Below, in pieces: positions 1-27,482 of a DNA stretch of 64,000 nucleotides. Numbering within the stretch: the first letter of the stretch is position 1; each line of letters begins with the position of its first letter. The DNA comes from Lithospermum erythrorhizon (taxonomy: Eukaryota > Streptophyta > Magnoliopsida > Boraginales > Boraginaceae): contig JADFUC010000361.1 in assembly GCA_019722365.1 (NCBI GenBank), positions 2,501-66,500 of the forward strand, given 5' to 3'. The position numbers and the translations under genes were made by a program. A model generated the notes under the pieces. It saw only the letters and a list, made by a program, of their open reading frames with translations, was not told the origin of the DNA and did no database searches.

Positions 1-403
1 TACTGAATTTGTTGGAGTAAGATAATGGAATTGTGCTATATATCAAGGATAGTTCAGATATTAGATTAAGGCCTGCTGAAGTAGGAAAGGATTCATTTAT
101 AACATGACAACTTTTAGGATGTTGGAATGTCATTTTATTATGGTAGAGTTATAGTGCCTTGCTGAAAACAACATAATTTGTATTGTTTGCTCTTGAAATC
201 AGATTAGTGTTACAATTTTTTTGCATGGTGATATCATTTTCTAGGCGAATTCAGATAGATACTATTAATGCAATTCCCGGTAATCTTCATTTAGCATACA
301 TGTGAATTTTCTTTTTTTCCTTTTACATCCAAATAGGTCAAATTTGATATCCATTGAAAATTTGTGCTGTTTAATTTTTCTACTGCTTGTTCTTTGTATG
401 CAG

Positions 404-536
404 TAAATCTGAATTTGTTATATACAAGCTGAGAAAGTGACCGAAGGATATTCAGCTCATCTGTAAGCAGTTTGAGAGTTTGATCCAGGCAACTGTGGGA
501 AAATAACCCCGCGATCTGATGGAACATCGCCACTGA
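404..536 (+). pseudogene. TPK channel last exon, left-arm copy, frame destroyed
   Basis: The acceptor GCAG at 400-403 precedes the exon, which ends at a TGA (534-536). It is the counterpart of the in-frame exon at 26231-26378 but is 133 nt instead of 148. The 15 missing bases are scattered as small losses, several at runs of G, A or T, and together they break the reading frame. Fragments still recognisable include KSEFVIYKL at the start and the second EF-hand region near the end. In TPK channels this exon encodes the C-terminal Ca2+-binding EF-hands exposed to the cytosol. The pattern looks more like consensus error than like selection-free decay, but sequence alone cannot decide. Confidence 0.85.
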
Positions 537-2261
537 ATAAACAAATCATTGAGCAAGGACATAGGACATCGATATCTCATTCTTGAACTCAAAGATGATG
601 AGGTTGTTTTGCTGAAGTAAGAAGTGAAAGCATTAATAGTCAATTCATGATCAGATAAAGAAGGCATTGTGGTTAAGTGCAGTCCATGGCCTGGATCTAC
701 GATTCATGAAAGCCTAAGAATGAAAGAGAGATGATGCTGCCAACTTTTGTTGGTTAATACAGTGGTACAATCCTAAAGATTGATACTTCCCTTTAGTTAT
801 TTGTGGGCATTGATGGAAATTGTGATTCAGCCTAAGGTCACTACAATTTTGTTATCATTCATTTTATATTTGCATCTTCTATTCTTCAAGTTGAACACAT
901 TTATTTATCTTATATCGACATTCACAATGTAAATAATATTGACTTGTTATTTTTATTATCCGAAAATAACTTAATATTTAAGCCATCATCAGTGAGTTTC
1001 TGCAGTCGGAGGCTAACTGGTTCTATCCATCAGGTTAACATTATGTTAGGTTCAATATGATACAGTTATGTTGATCATTTGCATTCCCACCCTTTATTTG
1101 GGGTAAGTAATTTATCTTATAGTTAAATCTCTTCTACTGATGCTTCAACTATATTGTAACAAGTTCCAAATCGTCTACAACTTCTACTTAGCATTAGAAT
1201 CGAAACTCTACTTTTCAATGTATCTAATTCATCCGTTTAATTTGAGTGGTGTGGACATTAGCGGTTGCGGATACAATGGCAGGATTGGGAAAGCCGCCTG
1301 TTATATCAATATCCTAATCTATGTTTTATTCATGAAACCTAAAATGCATCTCGACTTCTTCTTGAAACTATTGACATACTACACAACCCACCCTAATATA
1401 AAAAACTCCTCGGCGGTGTGGTTCTCTCATTTGTGGGTTGTTTGTACATAAATTACTCCTTACAATTTATTTTTGATTTACGCTTTTGGTTTTTGAGCGA
1501 AATTTTATCATAAGTAACTTTTTAATTACACAAAAAAATGGAAGAAAATATATAAATAAAAATAGAGCCTTTGAAAAGAAAATGAATCTAATTAGAATGA
1601 AGAATAAAAAAATATTTGTTGATCGACTTCACTTTGAAAAAATTAATACATAATTAAATTGAATTACACGCATTATTATGATAATGTTTTTGAAAACAAA
1701 TTCACCGGGATATTAATACTCATTTATCACTAAAAGAATAGATATATCATGAACTATAAATTTATAAATGTAATAGAGTAAATACCAAACATAAAAAAAT
1801 AAAAAAATGAATATGTATGTTAATTTATTTTTCATATTTATATATACGTGGTAGGTAACAATGAAAGGTTTACCCTATACTGCACAATAGTCGTACCTGA
1901 GCGAGTTTTTGAAAATGAAAAGCCAATAACTTTTGATTCAATATCCGCATATATAAAACACGTAATCTGCATGGATGGGATTGTACACGTCCGTTGGGTT
2001 AACATTGTCATCCCTTGCCAAACTATTAAGTTTTGAAAGAAAGAAATTCTTTTAACACTAGTTCTCTAAATAACTACATCATCTAGAACAAGGTAGCATT
2101 AATCTTTACTTGAATAAGAGAATAACTTAAGCTTTCTATGTCACCCTATTTTAGTGTATCTTTACAAACATTTGTTACTTGTAATATGTCGAATGGAATT
2201 GATGTCTCTATTCAATTCTACATTTTGGGGATCTCATTTGTTAAACCCATAAATTCAACAT
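537..2261. other. Non-coding 3' flank of TPK, left arm
   Basis: AT-rich sequence without recognisable coding content. Bases 537-1100 look like the 3' UTR and immediate flank of TPK because they follow its stop codon. The same sequence occurs reversed at 24546-26230. The 103-codon open frame near 1140-1451 has no recognisable motif and its partner in the other arm is not open, so I treat it as chance. Confidence 0.6.
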
Positions 2262-2521
2262 ACTTTGATATAGTCTCTCTTAAACTTTTTTTTTTTCGGT
2301 CTACTTTAACATCTACGCTCATTTATAACTATCAATCTATCATGTATTCACATCTTTTGCTTTCAGCATTTATTCAATGTCTTCAAGCATAACCATATCA
2401 TCTCTATGATTCTCTCTCAATTTTGCCTCGCTTGAAGAAGCCCGACTTCATCTTGAATAACTATCTTTCTAATTCTTTTTATTTTGAGAGTAATTCCACA
2501 CAACCCTCTTAATACTCTCAT
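2262..2521 (-). mobile_element. LINE reverse-transcriptase C-terminal remnant, left arm
   Basis: The minus strand reads, over shifted frames, pieces resembling the tail found at the C-terminus of many plant LINE-type ORF2 proteins: MRVLRGLC, then RIRK.VIQDEVG, then RPKK before a helical end. No catalytic RT domain is present, so only the 3' stub remains. The copy at 24286-24545 is its mirror image and is slightly easier to read. Confidence 0.5.
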
Positions 2522-3189
2522 CTTTGCTACTAAAATCTAAATTAGTTGATATTTCAATGACCACTCATGCGCTATACATCAAAGGTTGCCTTATGTGGCA
2601 TCTTGTATTTATCGCTGATCTTTTAGAACCTTTTTTTATCTTACAACACACGCATTACATTCTTTTCCTTTTATACCATCCGGCCTTAAATCCATTTACT
2701 CGATCTATTGTGAGATCAGTTTCCATTCTACATCATCAATTCCCAAATATTTAAAAATATCATTTTTTCTAATTTTCAACATCTCTAAACTCATATCTAT
2801 AATACGGATACTTATATTTTCACTAAATTTACACTCCATGTACTAATCTTATCATGACGTGAAGTTGGGGCTATAAATGAATTTAAAGGTTCGCTTGATC
2901 TCAGATATCTGCCTAAAATAGTTCGAGTTCCGAATTGAGCCAACATTGGAATATATTCGCCTGATGGTTTGGCTGTGCCTTCACCCCCAAACTTTTTGCT
3001 ATTATTAGCCTGCACTTCATACTTGAATTTTAATAACATAATCCAAGTCCCCAAACCCATTATCATGAAAGACTACCCCATGCCCCAGCGTTGATAGAAA
3101 ATCATAATCATACTTGAATAAAAATCAATACAAAACATAACCAAGATCACTTTAAATTGTATAAATCGATCTAAATAATAAGATCACTT
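2522..3189. other. Non-coding, left arm, between LINE tail and LTR
   Basis: No recognisable gene or element. The sequence mirrors 23571-24285. An open frame at 2812-3066 (minus) overlaps the mirror image of another open frame in the right arm. Neither resembles a known family. Confidence 0.5.
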
Positions 3190-4078
3190 ATAGCAATCCA
3201 TCGGAAGTCCTGTCAACAATTTTTTCCAAAGCCTAGAATAGCAATCCAAATCTTCAAGCACTCCAGAGTAGTGCCTCTAGTTAGTCCACACCAGAGGGAG
3301 TCAATCCCCCACACTCGAGTCCGCTAGAATCCTGGATTAAGATTGGATGAATATCGAAAACAAGAATCAAGTTCTCAGATTCTGATTTGTTTCACCCTCT
3401 CTAAGGAGTGAGGGAGTAATGGAATCATGTGTTGTGGCTAGTTTTTGCTTTGTTTTATTATTTCTAATATTTACATGTAATGCCTTATTAATGATCTCGA
3501 TATTAGAAAACATAACTCGTTAACTAACGGTGAGCCAAGCCTATTAAGCAAACTCATTATTTAATTAGTCTTATCAAACCAATTAAATAAACTCATTAAG
3601 ACAACCGACAGCACTAATCTTGGTCAGTTAATTATGGCGTTCACTAACAAATTGATTAATTGAACTAACAAGTCTATTAATTCAAGTTCATTCCAATTAT
3701 TTACATCTCTGTAATATAATTATCCTTAATCGTGAATTCCATTGATTGTAATCAACTTAATTAGCAAGTATAGTTTAATTTTTATACATGAAATATAACT
3801 CAACATCACTGTATGCAGACCTTCTAGCCTCGATAGTAGCAATCGTGATAACAATATAATTGACCATTATTATTATTATATCGACATGCACGGGATTCAG
3901 CAATCTAGCATAATCCCTTTGTATTATCTTGAGACACCTACTAGCAATTACAATTACTATTATTGAATGTTCTCGCTTATGTAATCACATTTTAACTAAA
4001 ACTAGGTAAATGAATTGGTCATAACAATTGTTGCAATGGACATAATTATTAAAAACCAATATTCATTGGATTTCCACA
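3190..4078 (-). mobile_element. 3' LTR of non-coding retroelement, left arm
   Basis: On the minus strand the LTR begins TGTGGAAATCC at 4078, directly after the purine tract AAGTGGGG (4079-4086), the polypurine tract expected before a 3' LTR. The body matches the LTRs at 35758-36750 and 44537-45486 in order: an initial GAAATC..AAT block, GCAACAATTGT, AATGTGATTAC, an AT-rich ATTATTATTAT block, and AGGCTAGAAGGTC. The far end near 3190 is estimated from the decay of similarity. Confidence 0.75.
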
Positions 4079-5772
4079 CCCCACTTGCCCTCGACGACAT
4101 TTTACGCCTTTGTCTCGCGATCTTTAGTCACAAAGCAACTACGTAGGCTGCGGTCATGAAATACCCATGACTTTCTTTACTCTAACTATGAATCATAATC
4201 ATAAACCGGACGATAAACCGTGCGCCAGCAATTTAGCCATGACTCCTCCGAGAGGCTTCGAGATTCACCAGATATCAAGGATGGACACCCGCTTATAATA
4301 TATCGATATCTACTACTTTATACTCAATCGTAAGCCTTAACATATGCCGCTTCCGACCTCGCTTAAGCAAGTACGCTGGATGACAAAATCTAAGTACAAA
4401 GCTCATATAACATAGATGGGCTATATAATGAGGTTCAAGAATCGCTAAACTTCGTCGATCTCTACAAATTCATAGGACACGATATATGGCTATCTTCTAT
4501 AATTTTGCAATCCGTCAATCTAGCTCCTCAATTTACAAACCGAGCAGCCCATAAGATTAATTAGACTTACTAGCTCTCATGATCTAAGAAAACGATCATC
4601 ATTCAATCACTACGTCAAGTCATCAAATGCTAGTTGCCCCAAAAAAATTCAAAGATTCCGATCAGAAAAATTTGATATCCTATTAGACTTGAAGAGGCTC
4701 TTGTTATTTCAAGTTGCCTCTCTAGAACCGCAAATTGGGATTTATTATTTCAACCATCCATGGAATAATAAATGACTATATGATTGAATTACGATCATCA
4801 TAATGAAGTTAGCAATCGTGATCAGAAGACAATAATTACCTTGTTCAATCAATCGCTAACTTGTTCTAGAAGTAAATGAATCCAGCTCCAATCAACCTTG
4901 CATCGCCTGGCTTTCTTCTTGATCTCGGTGGAAATGAAAATCTGATTCAATCACGTAAGAAGATATCCATCTCGAGATGCTCGCTTAAGTCCACACGTGA
5001 ATCCTTTGCTTCAGATGAAACTCTTAGTTCCCTTTTAGGACACGCGAAGTCGGAAGGCGCTTTTATTATAATCACATTCTTAACTGTAAAGCTTACTTAC
5101 AATCTGAAGTTCACATCCATCTACTCGGTCTCTAAACCATGGAATCGCCGATGGTTAAGATTATCCGAGCATAGTCTTTATTTCAATGTGGGCAAATGGG
5201 TTTTATGCATTTTGCCATAATCTTTGCCTTCGAAATTGTGACATTACTATCCTGATCCGGGTTTCTTCTCAAAAGCCCACTTACACTCAATGGCCGAATC
5301 CCATTAGTTAAGGTAATGCTGAACAAAACCTCATGGTATATATAAAAACTATATCATATTTTGCGGCGCTTAGCCATTTCTCGGTTATCATCTGGTAGTT
5401 TTGCTAACACAACTAAAAAAGTGTGTAAAAATACATCTATGTCATTAAATCCATATTCTTTAACAACATTACCGGCAATACAAATTGGATCGGGTCAAGT
5501 TATAACAGTTCTAAGTTTTTTATACTTCCAGTATAATAGACTCAGCCCCATTAATGAATTACTTGACTAATCGTGTTTTATATGGGACAACTGTCCATGA
5601 CACCATTCTCAAGCATTCAAATTTCTCAAAAAGAGACCAACAACTGATCCATTGCCTATAAGTATAGTTACCTCTATTCTCTTAAAGTTACTATAAAGTG
5701 CATTCAACCGCATGAATACCTTTAGTAAAACCACACAATGCCACATTTTAGATCGTAAGAAGTATCAATACG
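4079..5772 (-). mobile_element. Retroelement interior next to the 3' LTR, left arm
   Basis: Mirror of 21060-22716, and related to 42950-44536 of the second element copy. No protease, integrase, reverse transcriptase or gag motif is visible in any frame. Scattered open frames such as 4876-5220 are not conserved in the mirror copy or in the second element. Confidence 0.7.
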
Positions 5773-6691
5773 CGTATCGACCCACCCTCAGTCGGCCGCC
5801 TGTGGAAAGCAAGATCATCAACAACCTGTACACTGTGAGTCATCAATCGATGGATACAACATAAATCACTTCATTCGACATTAATAATAACAATACACTG
5901 TCTATTCAACTAACAACACACCACACAAATCGCTATCATCAATATAAACATACATCAACTTTGAATAATAAGCAAATACACAACATAGTCTTCAATATAC
6001 ATCATAGTGGTAATATGTCAGAAACATGACCTCAATATACAACATAAAAAGTTTAAACATAACAAGAGTAAACAATGTGAGAATGCACCGCTGAGACTTC
6101 CTGGCCACCACCGCCTCACCTACGATCTTAGTCTCAGAACCCGACAACGCAGCCTCCTCAAAGAACTTTAGATCACTCCTTGGGAAAACTGGTATACAAA
6201 CGCCCACCCATAGAGCACAGTGGAGTAAGTCGAAGCTTTAGCGAATACAACACTACAAAGAGTCCAACCACACAGTTTATAATCATACTCATATAAGAAC
6301 ATATGGTAAATATTAATAAAGGCCTAATGAACAACTACTCCCAAATTACATAGTAACCTCGCTCAACATCACTACGATCAATATAACACCTACACATATA
6401 TTCATAATGAATAACCCGCTCTTTGCATCATTACTTTTAATAGTATAACGCCGGTGGATTATTTCGAGGAGAAAAATAAAAATTCTCAAGTTGAATGTAA
6501 AATACAACGAATCAATGTCAAGTAAGATATTTCTCGGTTTCTTTGAGAATTTTAAAGTTGTAACCGAATGGAAAGTCGATATTATTTGGGGCGGTAATAT
6601 AATTCGGGAGTATGAAACGCTGGGATGTTTGAAAGTTGGTTGTCGAGATAAGTTAAAACGAGAAGTATCGATTGAATTAAAACGATCGGGT

Positions 6692-6703
6692 TTCACCATA
6701 TAA
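6692..6703 (+). promoter_or_regulatory. TATA-like box of the nested LTR-like insertion
   Basis: CACCATATAAAG is followed by TAATGGGCC, a pyrimidine-rich leader (about 6765-6850) and a GT donor-like site. The mirror copy (20108-20119) keeps the TATATGG core. This ordering is that of a plant promoter plus spliced leader and fits the U3/R part of an LTR. Activity is inferred only. Confidence 0.35.
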
Positions 6704-7867
6704 AGCTAATGGGCCAACCCATTAACCCATAACCAACCCAAAGCCCAAAAGAAAGAAGGATCAGCCTTCTCCTTCACGCCTAGACGCAAGAACACTCCCC
6801 CCCTTGAAATTTCTTTCTCCGATTTCTCTTCCATCTCGCAAGCTTTGGACCTCAAATTTCTCGAGAGTTCATCATCCTTTTCGATTCAAGGTAAAAAGGT
6901 CGGATCTTTTGAGTATTTCCCTCGTGAGTTTCGTCGAGTTGACTTTTTGACTTTTAGATTTGAATTTTATTGCTATAAACGATTCTTAGGCCTTAAATTA
7001 GTTGGTTTTGAAAGTTAAAGTTAAGAGCTCTGGCTCTGGTATTTCGATGCCTGGAGGACGCTTTTTAATTTTGGGGATTTAGTTGACTCTCGCTTTTGTG
7101 GGTTATTATTGCTTATAATTATTATCTAGGCTTAGATTATGTGATAAAGAGATGATATCAATTTTTGGGGTAGAAAGTTATATAGTTGAGTTGACTTTTG
7201 GGTTTAAAATGTTACCGAGTATAAATATGTTATTGACCTTTATTAAGATTGTTTTGAGGTGGAAATTTTGATTTATAAGTTGTCGGAGGAATATAATAAA
7301 TTAGTTTATTAGATTTTGAAAGAGTAAACGGGTTTCGATTCGAGGCTGTTAGAAATTTCTGGGTTTAATTAGTTGGAAAAGCACATTTCGGGGTTGATTG
7401 AAATTGGTTGAAAATGTTGGGTATTTTGGTTATGTGTCATTTATCAGCTGGATTTAGTCAGATAATAAATTGGTTTTGTTCTTATTGAAACATAATTAGT
7501 AATCTATACTTAAGTTGTCAATTTGTAACTAAAAATGGGTTGAAGTCAGGAATTGAATTAAGATAAGGGTTAAAATTGTTGTGAGTAGTAATTGTATTTT
7601 CGGGTGTTTTGATTAGACGCGGAACGTGGGAAAGGCACTCGATCGACAGCGGATCGCTTCTTATTGCTAACCAAGGTGAGTACTTATCTCACGAGTGCTA
7701 CTTTACGTACTTACTTTAAATTGTGTGAACATGTCAGTCAGGGTATGATTATGGAGAATGATATTGTCATCAGGGTATGGACATGGAGAATGATATACAT
7801 GACATCGCGGGTATGAATATGTGTGATCTTATCTGTGCGAGCCATGATACGATCAGGTGATTATATT

Positions 7868-8060
7868 TCGTGGCATTGAAGATTTGCTCTCGAGGTAAAA
7901 GAATACTTGAACTCCTAACTTTACGCTTTCTTGTGTTCGTGGCCTTGTCAAGACTTCTCTTTATATTTTCCGTGGCCTTGCTCTGCACTTTATATTTTCT
8001 CGCGGGCCTTGCCGGGTATCAGTGGCCCCGCTCGGCACTTCCTCAGATTTCGTATTCTCA
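7868..8060 (+). repeat. Short tandem repeat with GTGGCCTTG core, left arm
   Basis: Several imperfect units of about 30-40 nt contain CGTGGCCTTG followed by TTATATTTTC. The mirror array (about 18690-18800) shows the cleaner form, GACAAGGCCACGTAAAATAT, repeated. Confidence 0.6.
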
Positions 8061-8283
8061 CGCGACTCGCTGATTTCTTTGATTGTGAGACGCTTTTGGC
8101 CGGGTGGTGCTTTGTTACGGGTCGGTATCAGCAGTTAGTTGTTCGAAGGTGTTGGTTGGAGTTATGCGGACTTTGAGGCCACTCTGAGTATTTGGATATG
8201 ACCCTATAGTCGATGATTAGGTGTTAAAGCGACTCTCCTCGCGATACGTGACGCTATTGGCCTTAGACTGCTGCGATAAGCAT

Positions 8284-8590
8284 GTATGACTTTTATGATC
8301 ACTTTGCTGTGGTGCATTGTCGGTGTGGCATTATACTTAGTGTATAAGCACGGGTTTGTCCTTATACTACGGCAAGAGCTGTACGAGTCTTTGATAACTT
8401 TGTCATGGTATCATTTGCGGCGGGCTCATGGCTTAGTCTATAAGGCGGGGTTTGGCCTTATACTTCGTATAAGAGAGCGGTATGACTCTCTCTATGTTCA
8501 CTTTGCTGTGTGCATTGTCGTGCGTGGCTTTATACTACGGTGAGCAGGCGTTGGCCTTATACTTCCTAAAAGATAAAGAGCGGTGTTTAT
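8284..8590 (+). repeat. Three-copy tandem repeat of about 100 bp, left arm
   Basis: Units start near 8284, 8382 and 8480. Each contains TTTGCTGTG, GCATTGTCG, a GGC..TATAC block and GGCCTTATACTTC, with a partial fourth unit after 8590. The mirror array is at 18150-18480. Open frames that cross the array are a by-product of the repetition. Confidence 0.75.
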
Positions 8591-10026
8591 TAGCGCTTGG
8601 TCCATTCCCCGCAGTAGACGGATTGAGCATACGCGCATTAGAGGTTGGTATATCAGGAGATACGAGATATGGTTTGATAACTAGAGTTATAGTCGCTGTT
8701 GAGTCTCCGTGATTTTATTATGGGTGATTGCGTGTCTTTATCGAGACTTTGTATTATATGTTGACATGTTGTTAATTTGTATATTGTTGTATGATCTCGC
8801 TTTTTGACTCATTTATTGGTTGGTGATATTGTGCCGATTATACTAGGCGCTGGGTTTTACGAAATTATGTCAATTACTGCTGATTATTGATAATATTATC
8901 AGATTTTTTCTTGTGGATTCCAGGTCATATCATCGCTATACATCCTTGCTGCTGTGCTGAGTCAAGTTAATGGTTGAGATAAATTTTGAATGCAAGCATT
9001 AGGTAGCGTACTGAAACCGACGCTCATGCTAATATATAGATGATGTTGATATTTTATATATAGTGGAAAGTTGATTCAAACGGGTTAGTATATAAGCTAT
9101 GACCCCAACTTAATGACGTTGATACCATCAGGTGAATAAGTTTCGTAGGACTAAATGAATAAGTTGGGCGGAGATAATCGCATTTCTAAGTTATCTAGAT
9201 TAAGACATAATGCTGCTCAATTTGTATTAAGATAATAAAACGATTTGAGGTTCTTAAGTGAAACATTCAGATGTCATAGAGGTGTATGATTATAATTGGG
9301 GAGTAGCACTTTCCTCGTGAACTAAAAGATAGTCGGGGTCGAATATGTAAAATAGAATGTTTGAGTGGTATATTATATCGAAAATTAGCTATACTTCGTA
9401 AAGATAACAAATAGAAAGATATCTCTCTTCGTGATTAAGTGTGTATTGTGAGTGTTGTTGACGTATAGCGGAGTTGTCTCAGATGAATTAAAGCTATTAA
9501 GGAAAAAAAGATTTATCTCTGGTTTAGAGAGCATATAAATATAACTTTGGGTGGATAGTCGCAACAGAGGCGGTCTTCAATTATCCTTGTTTGTACGGTT
9601 TCAGAAAGAATTTCCCGATATTTGTATTCACTCATCTTTTTTAGCTAACTCCCTATTTCCAATGGGCGGGCGCTTTCATGCCTGCGCTTGTCATGACGAC
9701 CGGTGACGACGTACGAAAGTAGTCGCTGGGCACTCCGCCGGAGGTGCGACGGTGGCTTGAAGACCCTAAATACCATACTTTTACCCTCTTTGAGTTTTGT
9801 TGTACTTAATAATTATCATTGTCTCGAAATAGAAATCTATTGTTGATTTTGTATTTATATTATTACTTTCAGCTTGTTGTAGCGTCAAGTTAGTTCAATT
9901 CACGGGATCTAGTTGCATACTTTTTTATTACCACGTTAAATGAAGTCATTTTTATCATACATCGTCATGACTGATTATTCAGTCACGGTCCCAACCTCGT
10001 GGGGCCCACTCAAGTGTGTCGTTACA

Positions 10027-11165
10027 CATAACCATAAAAAATGCATAATCAAATATTCATTCAAATAAAACAACACAACAATCGTAGTATAATCATAACA
10101 ACTACAACAATCTCATAACATCAATCTCAATAACTCAATATATATTCCAATATAACCACATGACAAACACATGCCAAATATATAATCATAATATATATGA
10201 AAGGTTTCTATCATGAGATTTGTACTCACCTCGAGCAAAAGCAACTAAAATATCTCTAGGTAGTCCACGTGCTGTGTCCGGGGCTCAACTTTATCCAAAA
10301 GCAATTATATGCGTTTATTTTTACTTCCGCTTAATAACCTCCCTTTATATCTATTAAATCCAAAATAAAAGATCAACATAATTCAACAATCCTAGTATAA
10401 TGATCCAATTCAAAATGTAGTAAAATGGTCCAACAAAATTCAAGTTCTAGTATTTTTATATCATAAAATATAATTTTCCATTTAAATCCCGATTTATTAT
10501 TCTAGATCTCATAATCTCAAAAATAAATATCAAATCAACTTTTAAAAGTTCCAAAATTTATATTTATTTCATTTGTATATCATTTCTACCATTTAACTCC
10601 AAAAATTTTATATAATAAATACAAAACAACTTCAAAATCAAAAACCTTCTTACACAGTCAATTTACATGATAACACTCCCTACTTAAAAAATGTAATTTT
10701 ATAATTTTGGAATATATTTACTATTTATTTCCTATTTCTCAGATATAAAATCCGAAATTAAATAGAACAAAATCAAATCCATACATATATTATAGCTATC
10801 TCTCAATGATATACTCCTTAAAATGTTCAAATATGTCGGTCATAACAAAATATGGTTCTAATTTACCATAAAATCATATAAAGATTCAATCTTTAGTATA
10901 ATATTCAGTTTTTTACTAACTTTCAAATTACAAAAACAACGTAACATACCATCTAGATGCAGAATATATCAATGTAATAACGCAATATATCATCTAGAGT
11001 CAGATCATATACCTTAGATGCCGGATGCATAGTAGAACACTCAAAGCTCGATTTTTATTATGGTGAACTCACAAAACAAAGAAAAGAAGAAAAAGAAGAA
11101 AAAATGAAATGGTAAATGAAGATGATGATGATTTCGGGTTTAAGGGATATATATATAGAGTAAAG
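10027..11165. other. AT-rich non-coding segment of the nested insertion, left arm
   Basis: No gene recognised. Mirror of 15546-16685. Its inner end carries, on the minus strand, a TATATATA box followed by a pyrimidine-rich leader, so it may be the promoter-bearing part of another LTR. Confidence 0.5.
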
Positions 11166-11359
11166 TTAGGCCTCGTTTGGTATGGTGCTTTTATTTCTCC
11201 ACTTTCTGTCATTAAATTTAATGAAAACGATCCTAAATATATTATTATCTGTGTAATGTATTGTAATACTACTCACTATCACTCGGCCTCAAGATATCTA
11301 TTTTATTCCGAAAGTATTTATACTATCTACGGCTCCCACCACCAAACGATATATTTAAC
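11166..11359. mobile_element. MITE-like element, left arm
   Basis: It starts TTAGGCCTCGTTTGGTATGG and ends CCACCAAACGATATATTTAA. The shared inverted piece is CGTTTGGT/ACCAAACG. There is no coding capacity. TAGGCCTCGTTTGG-type ends occur in hAT- and Harbinger-type MITEs. Mirror copy at 15355-15545. Confidence 0.45.
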
Positions 11360-11411
11360 ATATTTTTAAAGGTTTAAATGTAACGGGTTATTTCACATGG
11401 TCATGATGTAC

Positions 11412-13361
11412 AACGCATGATCCTGACATAACATGCGGTGAATCATATCATCATGTAATAGATTCCAACCACCCTCACTCACGTGAGGTCCTTACTTGTG
11501 GGAACGGACCTCTAATAGAGAGTTGCATTGTCAATTAGAGAATCTATCTTTTTATATAATTTTATTTAATTGCCTCGAGCCTACGACAAGATTGTAACTT
11601 TAAATAAAGAAAAATGACATGTAAGCTACATGTATATCTGCACTAATTTATCAAGATTTGACTCACTCCATGCATAAGAATCAATTCACTACCATACCTT
11701 TCAAGGTTGTAGGAGGATTCCTTTAGTAATTGAATGTGTAAAACATTATGTGTAGCTGTGCTCCAAATAACCTTTAAGGAACTCAAGATTCATCTTCACT
11801 CTTGACCCTTTTGATTTCAATCAAACATCAAGATGAAGATTCTAACTCCATTATACTCTATCTCAAGTTTGCAACTTGGACACTGGTAGTATAATCGTTT
11901 CCTTCTTATTCTCGTTTAAGATGTGAACTTCCAATGACAATGTCAAGTATCCATCATCACCGAAAGCATTACTTAGAACATTCTTGATAATTGACCTTTA
12001 AACATTAATGCTACAAATTTCAGATAATCAATAAGGAAGTTTGAATAGATACGAGCATAGTCAACCAATGAATACGCTCAATACGTGGCCAAAAACCAAA
12101 TATTTGATTAAACATTCATTCATGACTATATAAGTTCATTTAATGAACTCTGCTTTACTTCCTCGATGAATCACCATATCTAGAAGGTTAGAGTAAGTTC
12201 TATACTCGACTGCGGTATTCCAATTTATTTTACTCGACGACCTTAAGTCATCTATCGGAGTATGATTTATTCATATAATCATCTATCTATTTGCATTAGG
12301 CGTTAGCAACGCATCGAGTTCTCAATATTCATGATATAACCTAAAAGCTCTCAATGACCGGATTGGTGTCTACTAAGGAGTCACTTGAATACATTCAAGT
12401 CATATATTTACTTCCATTCTTCATAATGAAGGTACTATGTATACAATGAATTGTACCTGCAGTTGATGGAAATAAATACTCGCCTTTGGCATGTATTAAC
12501 AATGATGTAATCTCAACATTGATCCTCAAATTATGTCTACCTCGGTGACATAATACTAACGTGTCCACACTAGACATTCAAAGTTTGTTTGTCAAATATA
12601 ACTCTCGAAGTTTTCACAATCGGTGCATGGATAAATTTATTTTAAAGGCAATGCGGCAACAACTTTGATATATGAAATTATTTGACTCCTTTGTGTCTCA
12701 ACCACGTTAAACACAATCTCTTACTTATATCAATTCAACTAGAATGACACATATAAGGTTAGAATGAAAAATTGGCTGGTATAAATTTGAAAAGATTTTT
12801 ATCCATTGTGCTTTAACTCGCCAAACACAATTCCTTACTTACGATTCATCAAGTGCGCGCTTTTTAAGATCTGGAATGATGTCTCATCCCTTTGATTATA
12901 CATTTGTCATGTCGATGATACTTAATCTCGTAACTTGATAGTATTTATATGGTCCTCCCCATACCTTATCAATTCCTCACGATACAAACTAAACTGGTGT
13001 TAACGCACTCCCACTCAAATCTAGTGAGAGTTGACTCATTAATCTAAGCAAGATCAACGCAAGCCTTGTCAAAGACATATCTCCACAAGTATCACCAATT
13101 GTCTATTATTCAAAAGCCCATCATGTTTTTAAATGAAGAGCATGGTGAACATTCCTTCAATCAATCACCCGATATTGATGATGGAACATGTAGTCTGTTG
13201 TCATTAAATATGACATCCTTTCTACACATACAAGTCCAAAGAAAATAGTTAAAATCTCAAACCACCTGGGATTTTGAGGATTTAAAACCTGTGGTTTTAT
13301 AACGTATCACCTAACATTACACAAGGGTTCACTTCATCTTTTTCTCGTAGCAATACGTAAT
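11412..13361 (-). mobile_element. Retroelement interior up to the axis, left arm
   Basis: Mirror of 13364-15309. On the minus strand it matches about 40826-42950 of the second copy, including the block AATTGTGTTTAATGAAGTTA and the following AACGTGG block. No protein motif is visible in any frame. Confidence 0.7.
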
Positions 13362-15309: not shown

Positions 15310-15354
15310 CCAGCGTGAAATAACCCGCTATTGCTTTTAAACCTTTAAAAATAT

Positions 15355-15545
15355 GTTAAATATATCGTTTGGTGGTGGGATCCGGAGATAGTATAAATAC
15401 TTTCGGAATAAAATAGATATACCGAGACGAGTATTAAATGAGTAGTATTGTGTTACACGGATAATAATATATTTAGGATCGTTTTCATTAAATTTAATGA
15501 CAAAAAGTGGAGAAATAAAGCACCATACCAAACGGTAGGCCTAAT
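15355..15545. mobile_element. MITE-like element, right arm
   Basis: Mirror of 11166-11359, with ends TATCGTTTGGTGG and CCATACCAAACGGTAGGCCTAA. Non-coding. Confidence 0.45.
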
Positions 15546-16685
15546 TCCTTACTCTATATATATCCCTTAAACCCAAATCATCATCATCTTCATCACCATT
15601 TCATTTTTTTTTCTTCTTTTTCTTCTTTTCTTTGTCTTGTGAAGTTCTCATAATAAAAATTCAAGCTTTAAGTGTTCCTACTATCATCTAAGCATCTAAG
15701 GTATATGATACAACTCTGTGATGATATGTTACGCTTGTTACATTGATATATGTTACGCCTAGATGGTATGTTACGTTGTTTTGTAATTTGAAAAGTTAGT
15801 AAAAAACTGAATATTATACTAAAGATTGAATCTTTATGTAGTTTAAGTGCAGAATTAGAACCATATTTCCTAAGTTATGACCATATATTTGAACATTTTT
15901 AGGAGTATATCACTTGAGAGATAGCTATATGAAAAATGGATTTGATTTTTGTTCCTATTTAATTTCAGTTTTTATATGTTTTAAATAGGAAATAAATAGT
16001 AAATATATTCCCAAAAATTATAAAATTGCTTTTAAGTAAAAGTTGTTATCATAATGGAGTCGAATTCGTGTAAGAAGGTTTGATTTCTGAAGTTGTTTTG
16101 TATTTATTATAAAATTTTGAAGTTAAATGGTAGAAAATGATATGATAAATAGAAATAAATATAAATTTTGAAATTTTAAAGTTGATTTGATATTTATTTT
16201 GAATTATGAGATGTTGAATAATAATAATCGGGATTTAAATGGAGAAAATTATATTTTTATGCTATAAAAATATTCGGGCAGTTTTGTTAGACCATTTTAC
16301 TACATTTTGAACTAGGATCATTATACTGGGACTATTAGATTATATTTGATCTTTATTTGTGATGTAATAGATATAAAGGGGAGGTTATTAAACGGAAAGT
16401 AAAATAACGTATATAATTGCTTTGGATAGGAGTTGAGCCCGGACTGCACGTAATTACCTGTGAGATATTTTAGTTGCTGCCCGGTGAGTACAAATCTCAT
16501 GATGGAAACCTTTATATATATTATGATTATATATTTGGTACGCGTTTGTCATGTGGTTATAATAAATATATATCGAAAGTTATCGAGATTGATGTTATGA
16601 GATTGTTGTAGTTGTTATGATTATACAACGATTGTTGTGTTGTTTTATTTGAATGAATATTTGATTATGCATTTTTTATGGTTAG
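15546..16685. other. AT-rich segment with TATA-like box and leader, right arm
   Basis: CTATATATATCCC (about 15554-15566) is followed by a CAT/TTC-rich leader and then AT-rich sequence ending in GGTGAGTACAAATCTCATG (near 16481). A similar GGTGAGTAC string follows a leader in the LTR-like insertion (left arm, 7674), which suggests related LTR families. No protein-coding content. Confidence 0.4.
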
Positions 16686-18149
16686 CGTGGACGACCGCCT
16701 AAAGCGGCCCCCCGAGGTCGAACGCATCAACCCGGATTAATCACCAACGATGTATAACGATAAATGACTTCATTTAACGCGGGTAATAAAAAGTAATACA
16801 ACTCGTCCATCGGGTGAACTAACCAACGCTACAACAACTGAAAAGTAATAATATAAATACAACATCAACCAATGGGTTTTACAACTCGAGACAACAAAAA
16901 CTCCAAAGAAGATAAAAGTATGACTGTTAAGGTCTTCAAGCCACCATCGCCACCTCCGCGGGTACGCAGCTACTCGGCCAATGCATCTCGGTCATCCCGC
17001 AACAACCTAGACATAAAACGCCTCCCCATAGGGAAATAGGAGTCAGCTAAAAAGATGAGTGAATGGCTAAATATCACGTATAATCTACTACTCATACAAA
17101 ATGTATGATAATTCAAGACCCTTATCTATTTAACGACTATCCACCCCAAGAGTTATGTTTTATATGCTCCTCCGACAAGATAAATCTTTCCCTTAATGGC
17201 TTTCTCTCCGAATTAATACCGACATAACTCCACACCACGCCAACAACTTACTCACAATACACCTTAATCACAAAGAGATATCTTTCATTTGTTATCTTTC
17301 CTGGCATAGCTAATTTTCGATATAATATACCACTCAAACATTACCACAACTCAACATTTCAATAACTCAACCAACTATCTTTTAGTTCACCGGAAAGTGC
17401 CATCCCAATTATAATCATACACCTCCTATGACATCCGAATACGTTTATCATAAGAACCTCCAAATCGCTTTTATTATCTTAATACAACCGAGCAACGATA
17501 TCTTAATCTAGATAACTTAAGTACGGAATTATCTCACCAACTTATTCATTTAGTCTACGAACCGTGCCCACCTCAATGGTATCAACGCCGTGGTTAGGTC
17601 ATGCTTATATACTAACCCGCTTGAATCCAACTTTCCACTATATATATGGAAATATCATCAACATCATCTATATATTAGCATGAACGCTTTCGTTTATAAT
17701 TCTCCCTTATACCTAATGCCCTCATTCAAAATTTATCTCAACCATTAACCAACCTAACTTTTAACCTTAAAGGATGTATACCCATTGATACCACCAACCT
17801 AGATCCACAAGAAAAAATCTGATAATATTATCAATAATCAACCGAAAACCTAATTCGATATAATTCATCAAGGCAAATACCTAGTATAATCAAAGACAAT
17901 ATCCATAACCAATAAATGAGTCAAAAAACAGATCATACAACAATATACAAAATTAAATAACATGTCAACATATATAATACAAAGTCTCAATAAGGCAATA
18001 ATAATCTAAGTAATAAAATCACGAGACTAACAACTTAATTATAACTCTAGTTATCAAACCATCTATCTCTCATATCTCCACAAGTATACATCCTCTAATG
18101 CAAGATATGCTCAACTGGCCTACCCGGCAGGAATGGACCAAACTTAATA

Positions 18150-18480
18150 AACACCGCCTTATAACAAGCATAAGGCCAACCGCACTTATACCGTAGTATA
18201 AAGCCACACCGACAATGCACACAGCAAAGTGAACATAGAGAGTCATACCGCTTTATGTACCAAGAGTAAGTGCCGGAACCGCACTTATAGACTAAGTATA
18301 AGGCTTAATTTACAATGCACACAAAGAAAGTTATCAAAAAGACTCATACTCTCACTCTTATACCGTAGTATAAGGACAAACCGCATTTCTATACACTCAA
18401 GTATAATGCCACACCGATAATGCACACAAAGAAGTGATCATAAGAGTCATACCGCCTCTTATATCAGAAGTCTAAGGCCA
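18150..18480 (-). repeat. Three-copy tandem repeat of about 100 bp, right arm
   Basis: Mirror of 8284-8590. Each unit carries AATGCACACA.AG, GTCATAC.C and CGTAGTATAA or a close variant. Confidence 0.75.
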
Positions 18481-18689
18481 ATAGCTACATATCCCGTAGC
18501 GAAGTTTATAGCCACCTAACCCCCTAATCATCCCAAACTATAGGGTCATATCCTAATATCAAGTCACCTCAAAGTCACGTATAACTCCAACAAACACCTC
18601 CGAGCAACTAACTACTCTATTCTAAACCAATAACAAAGCACACAGCCAAAACGTCTCACAATCAAAAATCAACTGTAATCACCGCAAGG

Positions 18690-18800
18690 CCACGTAAATA
18701 CGTGGCGCCGATAGTGGCCACGTAGTCGCCGACAAGGCCACGTAAAATATAAAAGCGTCGACAAGGCCACGTAAAATATAAAAGTGCCGACAAGGCCACC
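18690..18800 (-). repeat. Short tandem repeat with CAAGGCCACGTAAA core, right arm
   Basis: Two clean units of about 30 nt (GACAAGGCCACGTAAAATAT plus AAAAG.G) with degenerate copies on both sides. Mirror of 7868-8060. Confidence 0.65.
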
Positions 18801-21059
18801 TCAAAACACAAGAAACGGTGAAGTTAGAGTTCAAGCTATTACTTACCTCAAGCAAATCTTCAATGCCACCGAAATATAATCACACAATCATATCATGGCT
18901 CACGTCAAATGAATCACACATATTCATACCACAAATGTCATGTATATCATTCCTGCCATAATCATACTACAATGACATGTATATCATTCTCAGCATAATC
19001 AAGGGCCTACAAATGACATGTTCCTTCATGCCAATTTTAAAGTAAAGTGCAGTAGCATCTCGCGATAAGTACTCACCTTGGTTAAAGGCAATAAGAAACG
19101 TCCCCGCCTAACGTATCCAAGTGCCTTTCCCATCGCCCGGCTGGGCCTAATCAAAACACCCGAAATACAATTACTACTCACAATAATTTTAACCCTTATC
19201 TTAATTCAATTCCTGAATTTTCAACGCATTTTAGTTACAAATTGACAACATAAGTATAGATGACTAATTATGTTTCAATGACCATTAAAATGACAAATTT
19301 CAACTATCCCGACTAAATCCCATAATCAGCCAACACCTTAATCCAAAATACCCAACATTTTCAACCACCTCAATCAACCCAAAATATTAACTTTTCCAAC
19401 TAATTAAACCCATTTCTCTAACAACCTCAAATCCCAAGCCCGCTTTTACTACTCAAAATCTAATAAACTAATTTCAAAATATATTCCTCCAACAACAACT
19501 TATAAATCAAAATTTCCACCTCAATCAATCTTTTAATAAAGGTCCAATAACATATTTATACTCTCAACAACATTTTAGAAAAGTCAACTCCAAAGTCAAC
19601 TCAACTATACTCAACACTTCCTACCCTAAAATTGATTATTATCATCTTATACTATAATCTAAGCCTCTGGGATAATAATTATAAGGGCCAATAACCCACA
19701 AAAGCCGAAGTCAAACTAAATCCCCAAAAAGTCAACGGCCCTCAAACATCAAGAAATACTCATTCAAACTCTTAATTTTAACTCAAAAACCAACTAATTT
19801 AAGGCCTAAGAATCAAGAGTAGCAATAAAATTCAAAAATCTAAAAAGTCATCAAAAAGTCAACTCAACCGAACTCATTTAAATACTCAAAAGATCCACCT
19901 TTTTTACCTTGAATCGAAAAGGATGACGAGGAGAAACTCTCCCGTAAATTTGAGGTCCAAATCTTAAGTAGATTTAAGAGAAATTTAGAGAAAGAAATTT
20001 CAGTTGGGGGGGGGAGGTTGCTAAGGCTCTAGGCGTGAAGGAGAAGGCCGATCCTTCTTCTTTTTGGGATCTGGGTTGGTTGCTGGGTTACCGGGTTGGC
20101 CCATTAGCTTTATATGGTGAAACCCTAATGCTTTAATTCAATCGACATTGCTTTAACTTATCTCTCACAACTAACCTTCAAACATCAACATTCCTATACT
20201 TCAAATTATATTACCACCCAAATAATATCATTTCCATTCGACACAACTTTAAAATTTCAAACCGAATATGCTACCAACCGACCGATTCGTTGTATTTTCT
20301 ATCAACTTCAAATTTTTTATTTCTCCCTCGAAATAATCCACCGAGCAACCAAGATACTATTAAAGCAATATTAGTACGTAACGGTTGGTTACATTTCTAG
20401 TGAATGGCGCGTGGCGTTAAGCGATCTCTAGTTGACGCTTTCTAACAAGAGGTTACTATGTAATTTGGGGAGTAGTTGTTCATTGAGTAGCCTTATTAAT
20501 ATTTATACATATGTTCTTATATATGAGTATGATTATATGTGGTTGGATACTATTTGTGGTATTTGTATTCACTAAACTTCCCAGCTTACTCCCTATTCTC
20601 TTATGGGAAGGACGCTTTTATGTCTAGGTTTCTAGGAGTGACTCTCCGGGAGGTCGGGCCGGTGAGTCGCGCTGTCGCCGCGCACTTAAGATCGAGGTGA
20701 GGCGGTGGCGGCATAGGAAGTCCTCAACAATCATTCTCCTATTGTTTCCTCTTGTTATGTTTCTAGAACTTTTATGTTGTATATTGAAATGTATGCTCTT
20801 GACATATTACCACTATGATTTATGGTCAAGACTATGTTGTGTATTGTTTTCTCAGATTATTCAAAAAGTTGATGCATGTTTATGTTGATGATGTGATTTC
20901 GTGTGGTGTGTTGTTAGTTTACCAAGATGGACAAAAGGTGTATTGTTATTATTAATGGCTAAATGAAGTGATTTTATGTTATCCATCGATTGATGACTCG
21001 TGTACAGGTTAAGTCGATGATTCAACTTGGGCATGGCCGAGACTGGGTGGGTCGCTACA

Positions 21060-22716
21060 CCATGATATAGCACGCATCTCCGTGAATACGAATTGTGTGG
21101 TTTTACTAAAGGTATTCATGCGGATTCGGAAAACACTTTATAGTAACTTTAAGAGAATAGAGGTAACTATACTTCCATAGGAATGCATCATTTGTCGGGT
21201 CTCTCTTCATCAGAACTGAATGTGAGAATGGTGTCATGGACAGTTGTCCCATATAAAACACGATTAGTCAAGTAATTCATTAATGGGGCTGAGTCTATTA
21301 TACTCGGAGAGTATACTAAAAAGCTTGAATTGTACAAAGAATAATGAAGATAGATGTATTTTTTACAATAATTTTTAGTTGTGTTGTAAACCTACCCGAT
21401 GATAACTCCGAGAAATGGCTAATCGCCATAAAATATGATGGTGTTTTTATATATACCAAAACGGTGTTTTGTTCTTTGCTTACACTTAACTAGTAAGGTT
21501 CGCCATTGAGTGTAAGTGGGCTTCTTTGGCAGTTAAAACCGGATCCAGATGGTAATGTCCACAATTTCAAGGCAAAAGCTTATGGCAAAATGCTTAAAAC
21601 CCATTTTGCCCATACCAAGATCAGACTACATCAGATAACTTAACTATCACGCATTCCATGGTTTGGTAGACCGAGTAGACGGGACGAGACTAGTCAGAAG
21701 TAGCTCGGGTTAAGAAATGTGATTGTAATAACCGCCCAGCCTTGTCCTAAAGGAACTAAGAGCTTCATGCAAGCCAAAGGATTCACGGTGGACTTAAGCG
21801 AGCATCTCGAGTGGATATCTTCTTCCTCGTGATTGAACTCAAATTTCATTTCACAAGATCAAAGTTAAGAAGAAACCGAACGATGCAAGCGTCTGGGCTT
21901 TGGAGCGCTTCATTTAGCTTTCTAGTGGAACAAGTTAAGCAATTGATTGAACAAGTAATTATTGTCTTGGCTAACTGACAAGTAACTACATTATATTGAT
22001 GCGTAATTCAATCATATATGCCGCTTATTATTCCATGGGTGGCTGAAACAATAAATCCTAAGGTAAGTTTGCCTTTCTAGAGAGTAACTTGAGAAGCATT
22101 AACAAGAGAGCCTCTTCTTCAAGTCTAGAAACGAGGGATATCCAAATTTTTTCCCGGGTCGATGCTTGAATTTTGGGGCAACTAGCATTTGATGACCAAG
22201 ATTTCGAATGACATCACTTTCTTAGATCATGAGAGCTTGTAAGTCTAATTAATCTTATGGGCTACACGCCTGTATAATTGCGAGCTGATTTATCTGCTAA
22301 AATTATATAGAAGATAAGTGTATATTCTGTCTCATGAATTTTAAGTGAAGTGTTGAAGTTTAGCGATTCTTAGACCTACGTGATATAACTATCTATGTTA
22401 TACGAAAGCTTTGTACTTGGATCGTCAAACGCCCGCTCTTTAAGCGAGATCACTGCATATGTTAGGTAACACAGCTGAGTATAGTAGTAGATGCCTGAGT
22501 ATATTTTGAGTAGCGAATTTGTCCATCCTTGACATAAGGATCTCTAAGCCTCTCTGAGAGTCATGGCTAATGTTTAATCGGACATCGCCGGTCATCGCAT
22601 GATTCATAGTTAGAGTGTGCCTGCGTATTTCCATGACACACTTCTCGCCATGGTTACCGACTAAAGATCTCGAGACAAAGGAACTCAGAAAGTAACTGCC
22701 CAAGGGCAAGTGGGAG
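21060..22716 (+). mobile_element. Retroelement interior before the 3' LTR, right arm
   Basis: Collinear with about 42950-44536 of the second copy. Shared blocks include TTTTACTAAAGGTATTC, AGTAACTTTAAGAGAATAGA and a stretch just before the LTR. It ends in the polypurine tract AAGTGGGAG (22708-22716). No protein motif. Confidence 0.7.
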
Positions 22717-23570
22717 TGGAAAATCAAATTTTAAATACGGAGCTTAATAATTTCTATGTCCATTGCAACAATTGTTGTAATAATTCATTTACTAGTTTAG
22801 TTAAATGTGATTACATAAAACGTAACATTCAATAATAGTAATTGTAATTACTTTTAGTCGCGGTCTCAAGATAATACAAGGGATTATGCTAGATTGCTAG
22901 ATCCCATGCAGAATCTATATAACAATAACACGGTCAAATTATAGTTTATTATACTTTTATTGCTACTATTCCAGTTGGGGAAGGTCACACACATACAGTG
23001 ATGTTTGTTATATTTCAAGTTAAAAATTAAAACCATACTTGCTAATTAAGTTGACTATAACCATGGAATTCTCGACAATAAATTATATTACAAATTAGAG
23101 ATGTAAATACTGGACGAATCCTTGAATTCATTGTAATTTTGTTAGTTCAATTAATCAATTTTGTTAGTTGAACTTGTATAATTAATTTGATAAGATTAAT
23201 TAACAAGTCAAGTTGTCTTAAAGGAGTTTATTTAATTGGTTTGACAAGAATTGAATAAATAAATTTTGAGTTTTGCGACTGTTGGCTCTCGTTAGTTAAC
23301 GAAGTTATGCTTTCTAATATCTCGAGATCTATTAATAGAGGTAATAAGAGATGTAACATTAGAAATATTAAACAAGCAAAAGCCTAGCTACGCCAACACA
23401 TAAGATTTCGGCCTCTCCTCCTGAAACAAACTGCAAGAACTTGATTCTTGTTTTCATATATTCATCCAATCTTAATCCGCCTCTAGTATCTGCTGTGGGA
23501 TTCAACCTCCCTGGTGTAGATCAATCAGGAGACACTTACTTCCTGGGAAAGTGCTTTAAAGGATTTGATT
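22717..23570 (+). mobile_element. 3' LTR of non-coding retroelement, right arm
   Basis: Begins TGGAAAATCAAATTTT at 22717, after the polypurine tract. The body follows the same block order as the LTRs at 35758 and 44537 (GCAACAATTGT, ATGTGATTACAT, GATAATACAAGGGATTATG). The downstream end is estimated. Confidence 0.75.
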
Positions 23571-24285
23571 GTTGTTCTGTGTCAGGAAAAAATTGTTGAT
23601 GCATTCCGATGGTTGCACTATAAGTGATTCCAATATTTGGGATCCGATTTATACAATGAAGATTCCTGGTCAGAGGTTTCATGTTGATTTATTCAAGCAT
23701 GATTATGATTTTCTATCACTGGGGCAAGTAGTCTTTCATGATAATGGGTTTGGGGACTTCGGATTATGTTATTAAATTAAGTACGGGTTCTGGGCTAATA
23801 ATAATAAAGCTTCTGGGTCAAGGCCTGTGAAGCCATCGAGCCGAATAGATTTCCAAATGTTCGCCCAATTCAATTTAAACTTATTTTGAGCCGAATCATC
23901 CTAATCAAACCGAACCTTTAGATCCGGCCGAGTAGCCTGAACCATATTCACAATAAGATTGAGTATATGAGCAAATTTAGTGAAAATATAAGTACTGGTC
24001 ATTATAGATATGAGCTTTCTGTGGTGATGTTAAAAATTAGGAAAATGATATTTTTTAAATATTTGGGGTCATCGATGTAGAACAAACCAAGTCTCACAAT
24101 AAGATCGGTAAAATGGGATTAAGACATGGTATAAAAGGAAAAGTAGTCGTGTGTTGTAAGATAAAAAAAGGTTCCATTAAAAGATCCATTTATAAATACA
24201 AGATGCCACATAAGGCAACCTTTGATGTATAGCGCATAGTGTTGGTCATTGAAATATCAACTACTTAGATTTTGTAGTAGCAAAG
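23571..24285. other. Non-coding, right arm, between LTR and LINE tail
   Basis: Contains a 68-codon open frame at 23569-23775. It matches no family I know and is disrupted in the mirror copy (about 2990-3220). Nothing else is recognisable. Confidence 0.5.
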
Positions 24286-24545
24286 ATGAGAGTATTAAGA
24301 GGGTTGTGTGAATTACTCTCAAAATAAAGAATTAGAAAGATAGTTATTCAAGATGAAGTCGGGCTTTCTCTCAACCGAGGCAAAATTGAGAGAGAATCCT
24401 TAGAGAGATATGGTTATGTAAGAATATTACTGAATAAATGTATGTAGTAAAAAGATGGAATCAAGATAGATTGATAGTTACAAATGAATGTAGATGCTAA
24501 AGTAGACCAAAAAAAAGTTTAAGAGAGACTATATCAAAGTATGTT
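24286..24545 (+). mobile_element. LINE reverse-transcriptase C-terminal remnant, right arm
   Basis: In broken frames it reads MRVLRGLC, then RIRK.VIQDEVGLS, then KIERESLERYGYV and a VDQKK/RPKK-like segment. This is the usual order of the C-terminal tail of plant LINE ORF2 proteins. There is no catalytic domain. Confidence 0.5.
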
Positions 24546-26230
24546 GAATCATAATACCCAATGAGATCCTAAATGTAGAACGAATGACATAACAATTCCA
24601 TTCATATATTACAAGTAGCAAATGTTTGTAAGATACACTAAATAGGTGACAGAAAAGCAAGTTATTCTCTTATTCAAGTAAAGATTAATGCTACCTTGTT
24701 TCAGATGATGTAGTTATTTAGAGGAACCAGTGTTAAAAAATCTCCTTTTTCTTTTCCAAAACTTAATAGTTTGGCCAAGGGATGACAATGTTAACTCCAA
24801 CCGGATCGTACTAATCCCATCCAGTATGGGCCTGTTTTTGAAGAGGCGTCCGGATATTGAATCAAGTTATTGGCTTTTCATTTTCAAATCCGGCTTCAAG
24901 TTCGACTATTGTTACGAGTATAGGTAAACCTTTCGCATCTCTACCCGTATATATAAATATGAAAAATAAATTAACATACATATTCATTTTTACTTTTATG
25001 TTTGTATTTACCTATTATATTTTATAAATTTATAGTTCATGATATATCTATTCTTTTAAAAGTGGATAAGTGGTATTAATATCGGTAACTTGTTTTCAAA
25101 AACATTATCATAATACGTGTAATCTGGGGCACTTAATTATGTATTTAATTTTTCAAAAGTGAAGGTCTGATCAACAAATATTTTTTATTCCTTTATCTAC
25201 CTTAGATTCATTTTCTTCTCTGAATATTTTTATTTATATATTTTCTTCTAATTTTTTAATGTAATTAAAAAGTTACTTATGATAAAAAAATTTCTCAAAC
25301 CAAAAGCAACTAAAAATGGGAATGAAGTGAGAATTTTATGTACAAACAACCTAGCCAACAGGAACCCTGGATTCTTCTTTGAAGTTTTTATATTAGGGTC
25401 GGGTTGTGTAGTATGTCAATGAAGCCAAGAGTCGGGTCACATTTTAAATTTTAGCAAACTTAGCGTCGGATATTATAACCAAAACCTTTCCCAATCCTAC
25501 CCATTGATATCCCTAAAATTAAACCGATGAATTAGATACATTGAAAAAGTAGGCTCTCTGATTTCTAATGCCAAGTAGAAGTTGTAGACGTTTGGAGACG
25601 TTATAACATAGTTAGCATCAGAAGAGATTTAACTATAAGATAAAATTACTTACTCCCAAATAAGGGTGGGAAATGCAAATAGATCAGCTTCATAACTGTA
25701 TCATATTGAACCTAACATAATGTTAACCTGATGGATAGAACCAGTTAGCCTCCGACTGCAGAAACCCACTGATGATGCATTTAAATAAGTTATTTTCTTT
25801 TGATATAAAAATAACAAGTCCAAATATTATTTTACAATTGTAGATGTCATATAAGATAAATAAAAATGTGTTCAACTTGAAGAATGAAGATGCAAATATA
25901 AAATGAATGATAACAAAATTGTAGTAATTCCAGTTTAAATCCGTAATTTCCATCAATGCCTAAATAACTATGGAAGTATCAATCTTTTAGGATTGTACCA
26001 CTCTCTGTATTAACTAACAAAAAGTTGGCAGCATCATCTCTTTCATTCTTAAAACTCATGAATCGTAGATCCGCAAGCCATGGACTGCACTTAACCACAA
26101 TGCCTTCTTTATCTGATCATGAATTCGACTATTAATGCTTTCTACTTTACTTCAGCAAAGACGAATCATCATCTTTAAGTTCAAGAATGAGATATCGATG
26201 TTCATGTCCTTGCTCCAATGATTTGTTTAT
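24546..26230. other. Non-coding 3' flank of TPK, right arm
   Basis: AT-rich mirror of 537-2261. The part adjacent to 26231 is the probable 3' UTR and terminator region of TPK on the minus strand. No gene recognised. Confidence 0.6.
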
Positions 26231-26378
26231 TCAGTGGCGATGTTCCATCAGATCCGCAAGGGTTATTTTCCCACAGTTGCCTGAATCCAAACTCTCAAAC
26301 TGCTTACAGATGAGCTTCGAATATCCTTCTCGGTCACTTTCCATTTCCTTCAGCTTGTATATAACAAATTCAGATTTA
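26231..26378 (-). CDS. TPK last exon, in frame (EF-hand 2 and C-terminus)
   Basis: Acceptor GCAG at 26382-26379, then 49 codons including TGA at 26233-26231. The family pattern YKLKEMGK.TEKDI appears here as YKLKEMESDREGYS. This can be derived from the usual codons by single-base losses at GGG, AAAA and GG runs, three in total, which restores the frame. That is why I suspect homopolymer under-calling. Confidence 0.8.
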
Positions 26379-27482
26379 CTGCATACAAAGAACAAGCAGT
26401 AGAAAAATTAAACAGCACAAATTTTCTTAATGGATATCAAATTTGACCTATTTGATAGCCAAAGGAAAAAAGAAAATTCACATATGCTAAATGAAGATTG
26501 CAGGAATTGCATTAATATGGTATCTATCTGAATTCGCTTCTAGAAAATGATATTTCCTGCATGCAAAAAAATTGTAACACTAATACGATTTCAAGAGCAA
26601 ACAATACAAATTATGTTGTTTTCAACAGGCATTTGCACTCTTACCATATTAAAATGACATTCCAACATCTAAAAAGTTGTCATGTTATAACAGATCCTTT
26701 CCTGCTTCCAACAGACGCTTTAATCTAATATCTGAACTATCCTTGATATAGCACAATCTCCATTATCTTACTCCAACAAATTCAGTAATACATCAACTAA
26801 CACATTCTCGTAGGAATATACAATACTATCTCAGACCATTGTGCAATAGCCAGAATATAGGTAGTCTAATTAGAGCTGTGTGAATTTTGATTTCATTGCA
26901 TTGCTCATGTCAACTGGGGTCACATTTCTTACCTGAACTGCATTACTAAGGTCAGAACTCCTAACCCCTTGCCTTCAACCCACAACTTTCCACATGTGAT
27001 CGGTGTTTGAGTCCAATACTACGTGGGTAACAGAACCAATACTATATACATGCATAAAAGGCTTCTTGAAAGGCTAGATTAATTATGTTCACCATTCATA
27101 TTTACCACTAAAATACAAAGAACTCATATATGGCTTGACAGGCTTGCATCAAAGTTGATGACCATGGTAGAGGTAAAAACAATCAAATAATTCTAACATA
27201 GCAAAGGGTTACTTTATAATCCAGAAAAAATAGCTAAACTTTACCTATATGGACTTATATCATTTTAATTTATCAGTTCTGAACAACAACAATTAGGTTA
27301 AATCATATAAATGTGACAACAGGATGCATCTTATTATGACATGCTAAGTTAGTAGCCGCTGCACTCTACAGAGTTCATCAATTAATTATGTCCACGTTGT
27401 GATAATTTTCTTTAACTACTCCTGATACAGAAGGTAAGTCTATAAATAGCAATTATATGAGCAAAGAAAGAGGCATATATAC
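26379..27482 (-). other. TPK intron
   Basis: Bounded by GT (27482-27481) and AG (26380-26379) on the minus strand. Its 3' part, 26379-26787, is the outermost section shared with the left arm. No coding content. Confidence 0.7.

Follow-up and report, generated by a model that had tools for sequence, protein, structure and literature searches.

Foldback reads account for about 0.55-0.6% of the genomic reads of Oxford Nanopore Technologies (ONT), and many of them are missed by common adapter-based tools; typically fewer than half retain more than 11 bp of adapter at the junction (PMC12870357). In the ONT 2D and 1D2 methods, both strands of a molecule, template and complement, are intentionally led through the pore one after the other, and the two passes are used for a consensus (PMC6854639). 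Large inverted repeats also occur naturally in plants. In the palindromes of the willow W chromosome, a 20-kb sequence common to the arms is more than 99% identical on average, the spacer of W.P1 measures 2.6 kb and genes lie inside (PMC7023750). Here we analyzed a stretch of 64,000 nucleotides (the window) from Lithospermum erythrorhizon contig JADFUC010000361.1, assembly GCA_019722365.1 (C2372:2501-66500; the assembly comprises 366,103,689 bases in 2391 contigs), which begins with an inverted repeat of about 27 kb. This inverted repeat is almost certainly not a genomic feature but a nanopore read, template followed by complement, which was left unsplit and built uncorrected into the contig.

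The extent of the repeat was determined by self-BLAST and by alignment of the arms. The window from 1 to 26787 is a single inverted repeat with collinear arms. In inverted orientation, self-BLAST matched 5505-21333 to itself at 80.1% identity and 1-5447 to 26787-21342 at 79.5%. Global alignment of the arms (1-13361 versus 13362-26787) spanned 14424 columns at 79.5% identity and contained 892 substitutions as well as 1285 insertion or deletion (indel) events amounting to 2061 gap bases; a single shuffled control (n=1) with the same aligner gave 54%. This alignment replaced an earlier one made with MAFFT, which had inflated the mismatches. A preliminary description of the window had reported a collinear inverted repeat of about 27 kb at its start, and BLAST and global alignment both bear this out. 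The axis lies between 13362 and 13363, within GTAGCAATACGTAAT-AA-ATTACGTATTGCTAC, where a perfect 15-nt stem stands on either side of AA. Past the axis, the sequence returns as the reverse complement of the first half, after a turn of less than 200 bp. The outer edge (1/26787) is fixed by the start of the window, and because the 2500 bases upstream of the window are N, the true outer end and the full arm length are not visible.

The axis carries letters of a nanopore adapter. The ONT Y-adapter is printed as AATGTACTTCGTTCAGTTACGTATTGCT and GCAATACGTAACTGAACGAAGT, and the printed bottom strand begins GCAATACGTAAC (PMC7490894; PMC9965538). At the axis, AGCAATACGTAA from the bottom strand is followed by TTACGTATTGCT from the top strand, the order expected when the 3′ adapter of one strand runs into the 5′ adapter of the next. 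The leading A of AGCAATACGTAA, absent from the printed start of the bottom strand, is presumably also an adapter letter. Where a natural palindrome would have genomic sequence across its axis, adapter was found at 13349-13376. Adapter 10-mers were found nowhere else in the window, and the exact pair of 12-mers, with at most 30 bases between them, occurred at one place in the entire assembly, which is this axis (reversed control, 0). Fold-back molecules formed during library preparation, by snap-back priming or as amplification chimeras, have been described for ONT genomic DNA (PMC12870357) and after whole-genome amplification (PMC13265396), and would have no adapter between the halves. The junction analyzed here has both adapter strands, ordered as the end of one strand and then the start of the next. 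The adapter at the axis therefore favors an unsplit read over an origin in library preparation, which we regard as very improbable.

The single-copy arrangement of the same sequence was found on a second contig, C905, of which 50,000 of 55,981 bases were covered. C905 42-17934 is collinear with C2372 33935-15905 (window 31435-13405) at 82.6% identity. It extends from beyond the outer edge of the right arm (26787) through the arm itself and, at the axis, continues into different sequence. The local matches of C905 end at window 13343 in the left arm (C905 17953) and at 13382 in the right arm (C905 17954), and no large inverted repeat was present among the self-matches of C905. It matches the left arm at 81.3%, the right arm at 83.0% and the flank beyond the arm at 84% identity, and represents the same locus, the other haplotype or a close copy. 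The match to a repeat copy on another contig, C482, ends at 13341, past which C482 runs on into sequence that, by eye, resembles the continuation of C905. When window 11000-13361 was searched against the assembly (40 of 2106 first-look candidates scored), only two of the 60 matches listed passed base 13342, both on C2372 itself. Two molecules of one locus, read consecutively in opposite orientation and then merged, would presumably leave the same adapter junction. However, both arms turn at one genomic point (C905 17953/17954), as the strands of one fragment must, and random fragments would rarely share an end; we see only a very slight chance that two molecules were involved.

The differences between the arms resemble read errors. 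Indel events outnumber substitutions by 1.44 to 1, whereas neutral-divergence simulations with the same aligner gave a ratio of at most 0.48 (20 runs, 8:1 substitutions to indels) or at most 0.64 (20 runs, 4:1). A shuffled control with the same gap costs (n=1) gave 1.52, so the ratio by itself is weak at low identity; it holds in the 23 windows with at least 88% identity (1.74) and against the 40 simulations. The differences are also polar. Ordinary mutation is expected to be nearly blind to the strand of a contig. On the top strand, the disagreeing columns contain 1100 C versus 669 G (left arm 561:329, right arm 539:340), a ratio of 1.64 compared with 0.91-1.12 in the simulations. Opposite a top-strand CG in one arm, the other arm shows CA in 81 cases and TG in 16 (15 versus 1 in strictly matched context). 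Methylation-driven decay was considered as the main source of these CpG differences and was rejected, since it would give CG/CA about as often as CG/TG on the top strand. Among 134 isolated substitutions, the transition class alone was polar (60:26), and the other three classes were not significant.

A three-way comparison with C905 covered 13256 positions. All three sequences agree at 10607 of them, the left arm is the odd one at 1120, the right arm at 919 and C905 at 399, and all differ at 211. Insertions relative to C905 are private to the left arm in 461 cases and to the right arm in 427; in 84 cases both arms have the same insertion, and in 45 they have different ones. A recent real palindrome would be expected to leave C905 as the odd sequence, and an old one to leave one arm odd. 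The arms differ by independent errors of the raw-read kind with read-strand polarity; the outermost kb, taken alone, lacks this polarity (transitions 11:9). The commonest substitution in both arms is T to C on the top strand (143 and 112), which is A to G on the other strand. A/G is given as the most frequent substitution class in nanopore reads (PMC8486125), a fit which suggests that the read may have entered the contig as its reverse complement. In 250-base windows, arm identity is correlated positively with AT content (rho 0.49) and negatively with CpG count (rho -0.58), consistent with the GC effect described in the same article (PMC8486125).

A real old palindrome, that is, a fold-back duplication whose arms diverged by about 20% through ordinary mutation, would agree with the collinearity of the arms across 13.4 kb, and large palindromes are known on a plant sex chromosome (PMC7023750). 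We nevertheless rejected it as extremely improbable. The adapter lies at the axis, C905 has the single-copy arrangement, the indel-led differences exceed all 40 neutral simulations and both arms show the same strand polarity. Moreover, a natural palindrome would have arms kept nearly identical by gene conversion, as opposed to the 79.5% observed, and the willow figures given above (PMC7023750) differ both in arm identity and in the spacer of W.P1. The least credible of all the readings is that the fold-back duplication is real, spans at least 27 kb and has almost no spacer, that its axis resembles the adapter by chance and that its arms were badly base-called.

Untrimmed adapters are common elsewhere in the assembly. 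The adapter 19-mer CGTTCAGTTACGTATTGCT, with at most one mismatch, gave 1342 matches (900 forward, 442 reverse), and the reversed control gave 0. Among 100 places listed, all 69 forward matches fell within the first 35 bases of a contig and the other 31 were reverse. The position of the forward matches at contig starts indicates that untrimmed reads entered the assembly. C905 likewise starts with adapter, differing in places from the printed sequence. As a control for base quality, we examined minus-strand positions 61969-62316, which hold the remnant of a copia-like reverse transcriptase (RVT_2, E 4.4e-13), with SH3 and integrase fragments nearby. The remnant is decayed by stop codons, of which it contains 8, but its net indel across 116 codons is zero, while the rate of the arms would predict about 17 indels; the adjacent SH3 match is divided between two frames. 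Compared with the flanks, the arms have rarer homopolymers and commoner CpG. Together with the remnant, these profiles suggest that base quality varies along the contig. The segment 38001-44500 is also unlike the flanks, with rare homopolymers of at least 4 (0.67 of expectation) and CpG at 0.99 of expectation, and is possibly another uncorrected read stretch.

Several observations weigh against an unsplit read. The adapter remnant is without its central portion, and 4 nt separate the two 12-mers. When one mismatch was allowed, at least two matches to an adapter 12-mer were found in 2 of 100 shuffled windows, and the position at the axis and the whole-assembly count are therefore stronger evidence than the 12-mer alone. 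The outermost kb is without transition polarity, and homopolymers appear less depleted in the outer 2 kb of both arms. A to G as the commonest substitution, which applies if the contig is the reverse complement of the read, conflicts with the drift towards A and T stated in PMC8486125. C905 is itself error-rich, and because it reaches only 84% even outside the arm, the same locus, the other haplotype and a close copy are indistinguishable. Finally, the authors of PMC12870357 consider foldback reads more likely to arise in library preparation than from failed splitting.

For the unsplit read, the following course can be proposed. One double-stranded fragment with ligated nanopore Y-adapters would have been sequenced as template and then as complement, the second strand passing the pore after the first, without the signal being split. 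The basecaller would have delivered one read consisting of the insert, AGCAATACGTAA as the 3′ adapter, a few bases, TTACGTATTGCT as the 5′ adapter and the reverse complement of the insert. An assembler laying this read down unpolished would have yielded the false palindrome. The preliminary description had allowed for either a real fold-back duplication or an artefact in which both strands were read in succession; the latter view is supported by the adapter at the axis, the arrangement on C905 and the read-error-like arm differences. It differed in two details. The axis holds a remnant of a ligation (Y) adapter and not of the hairpin adapter that it had named as one option, and since the homology to C905 stops on both sides of the axis, the 2 nt it took for a spacer lie at the center of some 38 bases that are not genomic. 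The features are collected in Table 1.

Table 1. Components of the inverted repeat and its outer flank, in window positions
Feature	Positions	Strand	Remark
Left arm: repeat-rich genomic stretch, one strand, with errors of the raw-read kind	1..13343	+	Cut by window start
Axis: about 38 non-genomic bases with nanopore ligation-adapter remnant	13344..13381	.	C905 homology stops at 13343 and 13382
AGCAATACGTAA	13349..13360	+	Matches start of ONT Y-adapter bottom strand (end of first strand read)
TTACGTATTGCT	13365..13376	+	Matches end of ONT Y-adapter top strand (start of second strand read)
Right arm: complementary strand of the left-arm stretch, second reading	13382..26787	-	
Outer flank of right arm, collinear with C905 42-4678 (84%)	26788..31435	-	C905 runs over the outer edge of the arm

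Gene content and other repeats were also surveyed. Pfam six-frame scans covered the window except 13352-16499, 21452-25999, 30952-31499, 36452-36799, 46702-54099 and 63992-64000, and in the arms they returned one sub-threshold match alone (RSC4_Ig_like, E 0.26). Rfam at gathering scores and a transfer RNA scan of the window gave no matches, and 44000-46000 had no match in a plasmid collection. Two stretches of the left arm, 3643-5742 and about 11384-12975, are dispersed repeats that occur many times in the assembly; the copies of the first are mostly about 69-77% identical. Outside the arms, 35760-36759 is repeated in direct orientation at 44538-45495, at a distance of about 8.8 kb, and the pair may be the long terminal repeats of a retroelement; the first 265 bases are about 80% identical and most of the remaining sequence aligns poorly. 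Tandem repeats were found at 51280-51715 (162-base unit, 2.9 copies) and 55042-55204 (44-base unit, 3.7 copies).

These results do not change the biology but serve as a warning on the assembly, which contains untrimmed nanopore adapters and at least some uncorrected stretches. Elsewhere in it, therefore, palindromes, frameshifts, diverged repeats or an odd composition should be met with distrust. The combination of adapter at the axis, strand polarity and comparison with a third copy may help to judge other giant palindromes in draft assemblies.

Compared with the willow W palindromes (PMC7023750), the locus shares a large inverted repeat but differs in its 79.5% arm identity, in the adapter at its axis and in that no gene was found in the parts scanned. 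It is closer to the foldback reads of PMC12870357, whose second half aligns to the opposite strand at the location of the first, to within 200 bp; here, however, the artefact lies within an assembled contig and has kept adapter letters at the junction. With the 2D and 1D2 methods (PMC6854639) it shares the successive passage of the template and complement of one molecule, but instead of being combined into a consensus, the two passes were left joined, across a remnant of the ordinary ligation adapter.

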